Shown here: positions 22,232-27,275 of the stretch, one piece after another | Position numbering within the stretch: the first letter of the stretch is position 1 | Layout of the letters: the number at the start of each line of letters is the position of its first letter | Source of the DNA: Opitutales bacterium | GTDB taxonomy: Bacteria; Verrucomicrobiota; Verrucomicrobiia; Opitutales; UBA953 | Reading direction: 5' to 3' | NCBI GenBank assembly: GCA_024697185.1 | Contig: JAILGB010000013.1 | Location: 62,001 to 126,000 of the forward strand | DNA: 64,000 bases | Made by a program: the position numbers and the translations under genes | The notes under the pieces: generated by a model | Told to the model about the DNA's origin: nothing | Seen by the model: the letters and a program-made list of their open reading frames with translations, nothing else | Databases searched by the model: none

Positions 22232-23401
22232 TTACTTTTTCTGCGCTTCCTTCAGGCTTTTTTCCAAATTCACGCGTCGGCGGATATAGGTCGGCACTTC
22301 AAGATCCTCACCCTCGTAAAGCAGTCTCGGCACGCCTTCAAAAATGCCGCGATCGTCAATCGGCAGTCCGCCTTCTCCCGTATAGTCGAGCGCGAACGAT
22401 CCCGAATCCTGCATCGCGTTGGTGACATCTGTCGGCGTTAAATATTTTTTCCGGCGATTTTCCGCCGCTTTAATATCTATAGCGCCGATAACGCAAAGTT
22501 TTATCTTGTCCCCCATGCCGGGAACGATGTCGTAGCACAAGCGAACCCGTTTTGTCGCGCCCATTTTTTTTGCGACGCCGCTTGCGATGAGATTCGCCTG
22601 TTCTCCGGTCGGGAACGCCGCAATACTGACGATGACAACCGCCGTGTCGCTTTTGTCTTGCGGCTCGATGAGCGGACAGGCGCTCAGGCTGTCCAATGCC
22701 GAGCGAATCGCGTCCGCCCCGTCTCCCTCGCCGATCGAAAACAATGTCGGCGCTCCCGCGACGGGGAAAAAGCTATGGAACTCGACAAAATCCATGCGCA
22801 AATTTTCATCGGAGGAAAACAACAATGAAAAAATCTTTTGCACGCTGCAGTCGATCCATTCGCGAGGTTTTTCATACATTTCGACAATGCTGCCTTGCGA
22901 CTCGAAGAAAGAAAGTCTGTCACAATCGATTCTCAACAAAAAATGGCATTCCCGACTCAACAGACTATAAGCTTCTCGAGCCGCGGCGACGGGAACGTCC
23001 CCGTCATAGCTGAACGGCATCGTCACAAATGCCGCGACAAATTTTTGCTGTTCCCGCAATATTCTGGCGATTACCGGCGTTGCGCCGCTTCCGGTCCCGT
23101 GGCCGAACGCCGACACGAGAATGACCATTTTCGTATCGGCAAAAAGCTCTACGATCCTTTCGGAATTGTCCCGGGCGGCAACAGCCCCTTTTTGCGGATC
23201 CCATCCCGTCCCCAAACCTGCCGGCCCCGAAAGCATCAGTTTCTCGACATCACCCAATTTCCCCAAATCGCGAGCGTCCGTATCAATATAAATTTTTTTG
23301 ACCGGATAAGCGTCCGTTTTTATTTTTGAAACGTATCCGCAACCGCTTTCTCCGATTCCGACAAGCGCCACTTTCAAATCGTTTTGCATCAAATGTCCCA
23401 T
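22232..23401 (-). CDS. ftsZ: Divergent FtsZ (tubulin-like GTPase)
   Basis: Directly downstream of ftsQ-ftsA; degenerate tubulin signature FGHGTGSGATPV, IDTDARDL, VTMPFSYDG; C-terminal peptide EDLEVPTYIRRR resembles the FtsZ tail (LDIPAFLRKQ). Confidence 0.83.
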   Translation of the reverse strand: MGHLMQNDLKVALVGIGESGCGYVSKIKTDAYPVKKIYIDTDARDLGKLGDVEKLMLSGPAGLGTGWDPQKGAVAARDNSERIVELFADTKMVILVSAFGHGTGSGATPVIARILREQQKFVAAFVTMPFSYDGDVPVAAAREAYSLLSRECHFLLRIDCDRLSFFESQGSIVEMYEKPREWIDCSVQKIFSLLFSSDENLRMDFVEFHSFFPVAGAPTLFSIGEGDGADAIRSALDSLSACPLIEPQDKSDTAVVIVSIAAFPTGEQANLIASGVAKKMGATKRVRLCYDIVPGMGDKIKLCVIGAIDIKAAENRRKKYLTPTDVTNAMQDSGSFALDYTGEGGLPIDDRGIFEGVPRLLYEGEDLEVPTYIRRRVNLEKSLKEAQKK

Positions 23402-23408
23402 TTTTGAC

Positions 23409-24599
23409 TTAAATAAAAAGTTCCTTTAATTGTTGCCAGACACTTTTCCTGTCCGTTCTTTTAAGTCGCTCTTTATATTGTTTTTCAAACAATGACGCCA
23501 AGCCGACAACCGTGCTAAAAGAAGGATCGTCAAGATTTTCCGCAAATTCCAATTTCGGCTCGCTGACCGTAACAGTCGCCCCCTTAAAGACGTTGCCGGC
23601 GGCAACGGCAATATCATCTAATTTTGCCGTTCCTCCGGTAAGAACAAGAGAGGAAACTTTCGCCTCCGGCGGGAGCGCTCTCCTGACGAGATCAAAAAGC
23701 TCGCCGACGCGCTCGCTGACGATCGTGTTCAAAATATAACGGCTGTAACGTTCCCCGCTGGGCAAACCGCAATCTTTTTTGGCATCTTCACTGCTCAGTA
23801 TGGCGGACGAATACGATGTTTTCAGCTTCTCCGCATTTTCATTTTCCGCGTGCATTCCGACAGTAATGTCGCGATTGATATTCATTCCGCCGACAGGGAT
23901 GACACCTGTTCCCCGCAAGATGCCCTCTTCGTCATAATAGGCAAAATCCGTCGTTCCTGCGCCGATGTCCACGACAAGACGATTTTTGCTTCCGTCACCA
24001 GTCTCCGTCGCCCTTGCGGAAGCGAGCGACGCGGCAAAAAGTTCACTGACATGAAGATCGTATGCATTGGCGATTTGGACCATTTCCGTCAAATAATCCT
24101 TTTTGCCCTCCACCATCCAAAGGTAATATTTCAGTTCGCTCGACACCTTGCCTTGGGGGGTTTTGGTAAACTCCGCCGCCTTTCCGTTTGGTGTGATGCT
24201 GTAACATTGCCCGACACGATGAACGATACAATAGCCTTCTTGCGGCAAATGCGCATAGGCGTCCGCCTTCGCCGTTCGCATATCTTCAGCAGAAACACAT
24301 TTTGCCTTTGTCGAGGTCACGCCTGAAATCGGACGTCCGGCGACTTGCCGGTATCCGCTGATCGACATGACCGCACGATGAACGTTCCCGGCAGCGAGCT
24401 GCGCTTTGTTTTCCGCTTCATTGATCGCGCCGTGAACGCATTCGTTCAAAGCCTGCATATTTAAAATCTCCCCGCGGATCATCCCCTGCGTCGGTCTTTT
24501 GGCAGAACTCAAAATCTTCAAGTCGGGATTCACCTCAACGATCAAAACTTTTGTGAACGCTGTCCCGACATCAACAATGGCGTATAAAGCGGCTTGCAT
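23409..24599 (-). CDS. ftsA: Cell division protein FtsA
   Basis: Actin-like ATPase: AIVDVGTAFTKVLI, VDIGAGTTDFAYYDEEG, VLTGGTAKLDD; C-terminal amphipathic VWQQLKELFI. Confidence 0.88.
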   Translation of the reverse strand: MQAALYAIVDVGTAFTKVLIVEVNPDLKILSSAKRPTQGMIRGEILNMQALNECVHGAINEAENKAQLAAGNVHRAVMSISGYRQVAGRPISGVTSTKAKCVSAEDMRTAKADAYAHLPQEGYCIVHRVGQCYSITPNGKAAEFTKTPQGKVSSELKYYLWMVEGKKDYLTEMVQIANAYDLHVSELFAASLASARATETGDGSKNRLVVDIGAGTTDFAYYDEEGILRGTGVIPVGGMNINRDITVGMHAENENAEKLKTSYSSAILSSEDAKKDCGLPSGERYSRYILNTIVSERVGELFDLVRRALPPEAKVSSLVLTGGTAKLDDIAVAAGNVFKGATVTVSEPKLEFAENLDDPSFSTVVGLASLFEKQYKERLKRTDRKSVWQQLKELFI

Positions 24600-24601
24600 A
24601 A

Positions 24602-25804
24602 CTAACGGTTCCTATATCTCGGATTAACCTCATTGGGTGGAGTGTTCGGCCTGTTGCGGGGCCGTTGAGGCTGTGAATTTTGTCTCTGTTCCGGCTGACG
24701 GGGATTTTGCGTGTTCAACGGCCGGACCAAACTCGGCGGACGCGGACGAGCGTGCGACGGCGTTCCCGTGGCGCCGGCCTCGTTCCCGTGGCGCGCATCC
24801 GTCGTTCCCGCGGCGGGAATCGAAGCCAACGGGATAATGCGCAACTCGATAAATTTGTTGTTGCCTTTTGTACTAAGCATGAAAACAACTTTCCATGGCA
24901 CCAGAAAACAAGCGCTGTTCCTGTCAAAATAATCCTTCAACTGTTTTTGAGTATCCTCCGATATCCACAAAGCCAGCTCGTCCTGATAACGCTGTGCCGA
25001 AAAAGCGAGCGTCTTAATCGGAGGCAAACCCGCATCCATCCGTCCTTCTTTCGGAGAGACCACAAAATACGCCCAAGACTGATCGTAACGCAGCGGGAGC
25101 AGTTTCTCGGGAATGCGCTTTAATGAAACGCTCTCCCATTCACACAGCAAATTCGCGCTCGTCAAACGGACTGCCTCCAAAAAATCGCGCAAACTTTCAT
25201 GCTTCAACAAGACCTTGAAACCGTTCTCGTTTTCCCGCAATTCATAATCCGTCACAAACGGAAACGCCTCATCCGCCATCGCATTAAAATACGTCTCCGG
25301 GAACAAAACACCATCCGACGCCACCATATTGACGCTTCCATCCGCCAACTTTACGCGCGCAAAAGCCCGCCTCTCCTGCACGCGAACGGTCAACAAATGA
25401 TTCTTTTCATCCCGTTCAACTTCGGCGCGCAAAATCTGCGGATAGTCCAAAAGCTGTTTTTGGACATCATAAACACTTCGAGTCATTACCATACTCGAAT
25501 AAAAACCCGTATATTTCAAAAACCAGTCTTTGTCCAGCGCTCCGTCCGAATGAAAGACAACATCATTGATATGATAAGCTTTATTAACCTCATCCGACGA
25601 AGCGATCTTTACAAACAAATTGGTAAAAATAAAAACCAAAAATGCCGCACTCAAGGCAATCGCGACCCCCTTGAGCCTCAAAACCCACCGCTTGATACGC
25701 GCAGCCCGGCTGACCAACGACGATTTGGCCTTCTGATCAATTTCAGAATGCCAATCTTTAGCCTTTTTCGCAATCGAGGTTGTTTTTTTTGAAAATAAGG
25801 ACAC
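24602..25804 (-). CDS. ftsQ: FtsQ/DivIB-like cell division protein (POTRA domain) with Pro/Arg/Asn-rich C-terminal tail
   Basis: One TM, POTRA-like segment, immediately upstream of ftsA; tail PRPPSLVRPLNTQNPRQPEQRQNSQPQRPRNRPNTPPNEVNPRYRNR. Confidence 0.75.
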   Translation of the reverse strand: MSLFSKKTTSIAKKAKDWHSEIDQKAKSSLVSRAARIKRWVLRLKGVAIALSAAFLVFIFTNLFVKIASSDEVNKAYHINDVVFHSDGALDKDWFLKYTGFYSSMVMTRSVYDVQKQLLDYPQILRAEVERDEKNHLLTVRVQERRAFARVKLADGSVNMVASDGVLFPETYFNAMADEAFPFVTDYELRENENGFKVLLKHESLRDFLEAVRLTSANLLCEWESVSLKRIPEKLLPLRYDQSWAYFVVSPKEGRMDAGLPPIKTLAFSAQRYQDELALWISEDTQKQLKDYFDRNSACFLVPWKVVFMLSTKGNNKFIELRIIPLASIPAAGTTDARHGNEAGATGTPSHARPRPPSLVRPLNTQNPRQPEQRQNSQPQRPRNRPNTPPNEVNPRYRNR

Positions 25805-25928
25805 AGCGACTCTCTCTTCCCCAAGTCTAACAACTTAGGATTGACACGACAAATTTTATTTGGATTTACAGCCGCGCTGCAATTCTTCCTCGAATTTCGC
25901 CTTTTTTTATGTTAAAATAGACGCGCGA

Positions 25929-27275
25929 ATGATCGAAAGTCGTCCCCAAAAAATCAATCCGTTCTTTTCCGCATTGGGAAAGGCGTTTGATTTTTGCGCC
26001 CAAATGGACAAGATCACTCCGATCGCCATTATCATTCTTTGTGTTTTTGGTGTTTTGGGCATTTATTCTTCCGGCTCTTTTCGCGGGAGCGACGAATGGA
26101 TCAAGCAAATTGTTTTTATCGCCTTGGGCGTTGGCGCCTACATCGGGATTATGGTGACCCCGCCTCAGTTTTTTAAAAACAATGCCATTCTCATTTATAT
26201 TTTCGGAACGGTTTTGCTTGTTCCCATCGCCATTTCCGCTCTGACCCATATCAATTTCGGCAATTTCATTCACGATGTCAACGGTTCCCGCCGCTGGTAT
26301 TTTTTAGGATCTTTCGGCCTGCAGCCTTCCGAATTCGCGAAAATCACCGCTTTGATTTTCCTCGCCAAAACCCTTTCATTTTCCCCGCTGACGAGTTTTA
26401 GACGATCCTATGCTTCTGTCGTCAAAACTGCCGCAATCGTCGGCGTTCCCGCCGGGCTGATCGTTGTGGAGCCCGATCTCGGCTCCACCTTGATCTATCC
26501 GCCGCTGGCGCTTGCGCTGCTCTGGATGGCGGGGCTCAAGTCCAGATTTTTTATCGTCGTTTTCGCTATCGGCGCGATTTTGGGCGGCATCATCGCCACC
26601 GACATTTATTTCTATCGGGAACGCATCGTTGACTATTACGAGGCCAATGACCACCCGCGCGATCCCGCAAGAGATATTCGGGGGCAATATCAGGCAGTCT
26701 CGTGGGTGCCGCTCAAGGACTATCAGCGGGAACGCCTGCTTTCTTTTATCGATCCCGAAACCATTGATCCGCGGGGAACGGGATCGTCGTGGAATGTACG
26801 ACAGTCGCTTATTTGCGTCGGCAAAGGCGGACTGACGGGCGCCGGATTTTCAAACGGCATGCAGGCAAAACTCGGATATCTGCCGGAACTCGCCGCACAC
26901 AACGACTTTCTTTTTTCCGTCATCGCTGAAGAATACGGCTTCGCCGGCTGCGGGACGATTTTGGGCATCTACCTCCTGATGCTCATTCGCATTATCCAGA
27001 TCGCCTACAAAATAAACGATCCTTTTTGCTCTTTAATCGCGACCGGGATCGCCGTCATTCTATTTATTCACATTTTTATCAATATCGGCATGAATATCGG
27101 TCTGATGCCCGTTACGGGACTTTCGCTCCCGTTTATGAGCTACGGCGGATCCTTTGTGCTCAGCTGTTTCATCCTCTTGGGACTCTTGCAAAGCGTCTAT
27201 GCTCACCGCAAATCGAATCCCCAACCCAAAATTATCAGCCAACCGGAAATCCAAAAAACTTTATATCAGCTTTAA
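25929..27275 (+). CDS. rodA: RodA (SEDS-family) peptidoglycan glycosyltransferase
   Basis: Multi-TM; GSRRWYFLGSFGLQPSEFAKITALIFLAK, AAHNDFLFSVIAEEYGFAG, GLSLPFMSYGGS; ATG at 25929. Confidence 0.9.
   Translation: MIESRPQKINPFFSALGKAFDFCAQMDKITPIAIIILCVFGVLGIYSSGSFRGSDEWIKQIVFIALGVGAYIGIMVTPPQFFKNNAILIYIFGTVLLVPIAISALTHINFGNFIHDVNGSRRWYFLGSFGLQPSEFAKITALIFLAKTLSFSPLTSFRRSYASVVKTAAIVGVPAGLIVVEPDLGSTLIYPPLALALLWMAGLKSRFFIVVFAIGAILGGIIATDIYFYRERIVDYYEANDHPRDPARDIRGQYQAVSWVPLKDYQRERLLSFIDPETIDPRGTGSSWNVRQSLICVGKGGLTGAGFSNGMQAKLGYLPELAAHNDFLFSVIAEEYGFAGCGTILGIYLLMLIRIIQIAYKINDPFCSLIATGIAVILFIHIFINIGMNIGLMPVTGLSLPFMSYGGSFVLSCFILLGLLQSVYAHRKSNPQPKIISQPEIQKTLYQL

Follow-up and report, generated by a model that had tools for sequence, protein, structure and literature searches.

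The window, that is, the whole analysed stretch of 64,000 nucleotides, carries a genuine ftsZ ortholog, whose product is the sole FtsZ of its genome as far as the assembly allows. We consider it likely (roughly 0.75) that this divergent protein is a working, vertically inherited, GTP-dependent Z-ring protein, which would hydrolyze GTP by means of D209, possibly together with a regained glutamate at position 212. The gene lies on the minus strand at positions 22232–23401, with an ATG start codon and an intact frame of 389 aa; translation of the same interval from the plus strand was rejected, minus being the coding strand.

As the initial annotation had proposed, ftsZ is located after ftsQ and ftsA. 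A ftsQ-like gene (24602–25804), ftsA (23409–24599) and ftsZ are found in this order, all on the minus strand, and the arrangement is that of the genus relatives. The ftsA product exceeded the cut-off of TIGR01174 (180.5 bits), while that of the ftsQ-like gene had no Pfam or NCBIfam match, though its syntenic homologs in congeners are clear and were present in all genus loci examined. The genome (1.59 Mb, 97.4% complete) also encodes two FtsW/RodA-type proteins, one of them at positions 25860–27275 of the window, and two penicillin-binding transpeptidases. No RNA families were found within the window, and anti-phage defence models gave no match.

The T7 loop in the species, the order and the phylum

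Residue numbers are those of E. coli FtsZ, as obtained by alignment to this protein and relatives. The T7 catalytic loop and the start of helix H8 read RMDFVEF (22778–22798, minus strand), exactly where the initial annotation had located them. In the alignment, NVDFADV is replaced by R207-M-D209-F-V-E212, so that N207R and D212E are real and D209 is kept (D209 and E212 being D204 and E207 of the window protein). All genus members have R or K at 207, preceded by a one-residue insertion common to the genus.

The view of D212E as damage had to be abandoned, given that the change is a gain relative to the lineage and that Glu is the catalytic residue of alpha-tubulin at the same site. Among 110 Opitutales sequences, Asp at 209 was paired at 212 with Thr in 63, Ala in 36, Ser in 7 and Val in 2; the remaining two pairs were D/E, which is the window protein, and E/H. 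The other sampled Opitutales showed T, A, S, V, G or H at 212, the glutamate of the window being the only acid. The branch of the window protein is nested within the Opitutales FtsZ tree (support 0.958) and measures 1.14 substitutions per site (FastTree). Judging from these alignments, the acid at 212 had already been lost in Opitutales, and the window species is the one sampled member that regained it. The E212 codon is GAG, one base away from codons of Ala or Val, which are the residues of the congeners; therefore, its acquisition by chance would be easy. In alpha-tubulin the equivalent residues are N249-x-D251-x-x-E254, with the same spacing as the D-x-x-E of the window; E254 is the catalytic glutamate (PMC8764682), and its replacement by Asp makes hydrolysis about fourfold slower (PMC7018511). 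It must be noted that alpha-tubulin is not a close relative and that the likeness is a convergence of one residue only.

The odd T7 loop is one case of a phylum-wide erosion in which most lineages appear to have lost one acid, relative to a baseline outside the phylum made up of a few aligned PDB sequences and the literature. In about 94 genus-states, both acids were present in 27, only that at 209 in 49, only that at 212 in 17 and neither in one; when the most divergent genomes were added, these classes held 28, 58, 20 and 4 genera, respectively. Opitutales are mirrored by the other orders of the class that were sampled, in which position 212 keeps Asp or Glu and position 209 is occupied by Gly, Thr or Ala. 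In a loss-biased parsimony reconstruction on the FastTree phylogeny, the acid disappeared about 10 times at 209 and 13 times at 212, was gained once, in the window species, and in one lineage vanished from both positions; these counts are rough because the deep nodes are poorly supported. The losses at both positions were negatively associated (Fisher p 1.2e-5, by genus and not phylogeny-corrected; crude branch-length binomial p 0.002). We rejected a strict rule by which every FtsZ would retain one T7 acid or more: of the 94 genus-states first compiled, 93 agree with it, but in the most divergent families there are several genera in which both acids are missing or T7 can no longer be recognised. 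Retention of a single acid is therefore a tendency. We found no description of this T7 pattern for Verrucomicrobiota FtsZ in the literature searched; key older papers lay outside the search, and an earlier report is possible.

The GTPase activity of FtsZ is considered to require both T7 aspartates (PMC11897509; PMC8142252). In E. coli, FtsZ D212A keeps 7% of the GTPase (cited in PMC8142252) and D212G complements only in the presence of suppressors (PMC5405962); therefore, most Opitutales FtsZ proteins are expected to be slow or compensated, and inspection of the site table revealed no convincing residue compensating for the loss of D212. The order-wide loss of D212 and the low activity of D212A would fit a (nearly) hydrolysis-dead scaffold, with stable filaments turned over by partners and E212 as neutral drift. 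The phylum lineages that lost both acids or the entire loop, the long branch of the window protein and the fact that the MinC C-terminal domain was not found in its genome point in the same direction. Nevertheless, we regard this explanation as rather unlikely: losses at 209 and 212 seldom coincide, as would be the case if one of the two acids were indispensable, position 209 is Asp in 109 of the 110 order sequences and Glu in the other, and G105 and G107 of the T4 loop are invariant in the order set.

In the reading that we prefer, that of a working FtsZ, the protein would bind GTP and polymerise head to tail, with D209, and possibly E212, catalysing hydrolysis. The Opitutales ancestor would have lost the second T7 acid, D212, and hydrolysis would then have relied on D209. 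Later, on a fast-evolving branch, the window species would have regained a tubulin-like Glu, which may restore or tune the hydrolysis rate. This rate is probably lower than that of E. coli FtsZ, and unusual polymerization dynamics, as suggested in the initial annotation, are possible. In view of N165C, G20E, the other T1 and T3 changes and the long branch, E212 could therefore also be drift.

Taken by itself, the window gene is no more than a modest variant; of greater interest is the pattern across the phylum, which lends itself to direct testing. Tentatively, one T7 acid may be enough for FtsZ to work in Verrucomicrobiota; of the D209/D212 pair, one order would have retained the first residue and its sister orders the second, and the window species would have returned to two acids after the ancestral loss by acquiring a tubulin-like Glu. 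The phylum would then offer natural variants with tuned GTPase rates. A sole FtsZ without one T7 acid in most genera provides natural proteins with which the need of the Z-ring for GTP hydrolysis can be tested, and the repeated losses, the reciprocal split between sister orders and the single regain are a basis for their comparison. Additionally, Planctomycetes and Chlamydiae, relatives within the PVC group, are FtsZ-less, and the FtsZ proteins of this phylum offer intermediates towards that condition.

Nucleotide-binding loops and C-terminal tail

The initial annotation also pointed out altered GTP-binding loops; we located all of them on the minus strand. The change of GGGGGNA to GIGESGC is real and belongs to the T1 loop GIGESGCG (23336–23359), where the canonical VGGGGGNA aligns with IGESGCGY and G20E is private to the species. 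The same holds for the change of GGGTGTG to FGHGTGSG in the T4 tubulin signature, AFGHGTGSGA (23081–23110). In its alignment with GMGGGTGTGA, the replacement of G106 by His is the sole unusual change; G105 (the ftsZ84 residue), G107, T108, G109 and G111 are kept, and Ser at 110, instead of the Thr of the signature, is common within the phylum. Position 106 is R or H throughout the genus, and Arg recurs there elsewhere in the phylum. Separately, in four loci of family f37 (L235, L238, L240 and L242) T4 reads CCGGGT with a deletion, a strong departure from the tubulin signature.

Three further unusual sites were absent from the initial list. These are R142P, A72W in the T3 loop GLGTGWD (23198–23218) and the replacement of the conserved N165 by Cys in the T6 loop IDCDRL (22913–22930). 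The last two, among other changes, are private to the species, and N165 is Asn in 51 of the 51 order sequences from other genera in the alignment. The claim that positions critical for GTPase activity are altered thus stands in part: the substitutions in T1, T4 and T7 are real, but D209 and most T4 residues are kept. By sequence comparison, most of the divergence of the window FtsZ is a trait of its genus, order or phylum.

The FtsZ-like tail was well recognized, since the conserved C-terminal peptide GEDLEVPTYIRRR (22274–22312, minus strand) is of the FtsA-binding type and its segment DLEVPTYIRRR aligns with YLDIPAFLRKQ of E. coli. Through this peptide FtsA would be recruited to form the division ring. 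After the peptide there is a charged extension, VNLEKSLKEAQKK (22235–22273, minus strand), which is predicted to be helical and is a genus trait. Within the genus, such extensions are lysine-rich (e.g., NLDKTLAKKKKEFG); they are absent from other Opitutales, whose FtsZ has at most a few residues beyond the peptide.

Orthology, copy number and predicted fold

The description of the gene as a strongly divergent FtsZ was upheld by profiles, fold, synteny, tail and phylogeny. Its product matched PF00091 with an E-value of 4.6e-20 (73 bits; cut-off, 33) and TIGR00065 with 1.4e-36 (126.5 bits), the latter below a cut-off of 295.2, which is a curated equivalog annotation threshold and not a biological feature. 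Only 19 of 194 phylum genomes exceeded this threshold; it is non-discriminating in the phylum because the other 175 also lacked a match above it. PF12327, the C-terminal FtsZ domain, had no sequence match in the window protein and was matched in 52 of 58 aligned homologs. With these 58 homologs, AlphaFold predicted a structure with a mean pLDDT of 84; in most of the core the pLDDT exceeded 90, and low confidence was restricted to the linker and the first 6 residues. The top Foldseek matches of this structure were all FtsZ (E ~1e-27, target TM-score ~0.85), with about 305 residues aligned; therefore, the C-terminal domain is predicted to be present despite the PF12327 miss.

A pseudogene, relaxed selection or an assembly error in a single MAG might account for the unusually long branch and the private changes at conserved sites, which are known from one assembled genome. 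This is very improbable, given the intact 389-codon frame, the confident predicted fold, the conserved tail and the purifying selection on congeners (dN/dS 0.07–0.16 in three pairs).

Regarding copy number, no further canonical FtsZ was found when the genome, which is 97.4% complete, was searched. The ftsZ product was the only PF00091 match, Tubulin_2 was not found, and the gene is the sole one of the tubulin superfamily found there; therefore, as far as the assembly shows, it is not a redundant paralog. Each of the 8 sampled genus genomes likewise has one ftsZ copy. In sequence and PDB searches FtsZ was best, a TubZ-type match (RepX) had an E-value of only 7e-5, and TubZ and tubulin scored far below FtsZ. 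Better matches to BtubA/B, CetZ or TubZ/PhuZ were also considered and rejected, all top sequence and fold matches being FtsZ. That the gene is a paralog or encodes some other member of the tubulin family (CetZ, TubZ/PhuZ or bacterial tubulin), as the low TIGR00065 score and the lack of a PF12327 match could suggest, is hardly credible for a sole copy with ftsQ-ftsA synteny, an FtsZ C-terminal peptide, FtsZ as best match and a vertically inherited position nested in Opitutales FtsZ.

Other departures from the usual division genes were observed in the order and phylum. In G042 (0.9 Mb), G054 (4.1 Mb) and G197 (1.3 Mb, 98% complete), all of the same order, several models found no FtsZ and no convincing FtsA; either these Opitutales have no FtsZ, or the linked ftsQAZ genes fall in an assembly gap in all three. 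In family f46, the FtsZ ORFs have only about 250–300 aa (L246, at G137 C1:2954169–2954696, L247, L248, L251 and L252). What is left of the protein is its N-terminal half together with the C-terminal peptide (NLDVPTFQRRG), T7 and the entire C-terminal domain being apparently deleted in frame in five genera. The short gene is immediately preceded by a full-length ftsA in G206, G209, G240 and G137, the last being a one-contig genome. The family has a second conserved tubulin-superfamily protein of about 340 aa (IGIGGAGSKIAAKL...GGGTGNG...; L254–L258, at G137 C1:2097873, G206 C4:64797, G209 C47:17331, G221 C97:76392 and G234 C16:66282), whose sole Pfam match, to PF00091, is weak (E 2.6e-6). This may be an FtsZ-like protein, so far uncharacterised, that is paired with the half-FtsZ.

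Relatives and comparison with known FtsZ proteins

The genus comprises 8 genomes according to kinship tables. A search with the genus alignment matched Opitutales MAGs from the gut of buffalo, sheep, goat and water deer, as well as Candidatus Spyradosoma merdigallinarum, and these MAGs were at zero tree distance from genus members found separately. Placement through these relatives points to an uncultured, gut-type member of Opitutales of the same genus as Candidatus Spyradosoma as the source of the window. Within the genus, identity to the window protein is about 28–33% for FtsZ vs. 38–40% for FtsA; therefore, of these two neighbours, FtsZ is the faster-evolving protein.

The FtsZ proteins of Opitutales/Opitutaceae (MAG loci L033–L038, with Ca. 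Spyradosoma as L035) resemble that of the window in synteny, single copy, T4 and T7 anatomy and C-terminal peptide, and those of the genus also in R/K207, R/H106 and the charged extension after the peptide. They differ from it in having no acid at 212, whereas the window protein has Glu and the private changes G20E, A72W and N165C. Canonical FtsZ proteins (E. coli, B. subtilis and M. jannaschii) share with it the tubulin-superfamily fold, D209, most of T4 and the C-terminal peptide; the window protein departs from them in N207R, D212E, G106H and N165C, with an identity of about 22–27% in structural alignments.

Verrucomicrobial FtsZ proteins are reported to be among the most divergent of bacteria (PMC9871819). 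In Verrucomicrobium spinosum, FtsZ has been described as canonical (PMC1845146), ftsZ is essential and division occurs by binary fission (PMC12283558). The Akkermansia/Verrucomicrobium-type proteins, group names being inferred from kinship, are like that of the window in being divergent, single and devoid of one canonical T7 acid; unlike it, they have lost the acid at 209 (Gly, Thr or Ala) and have kept that at 212.
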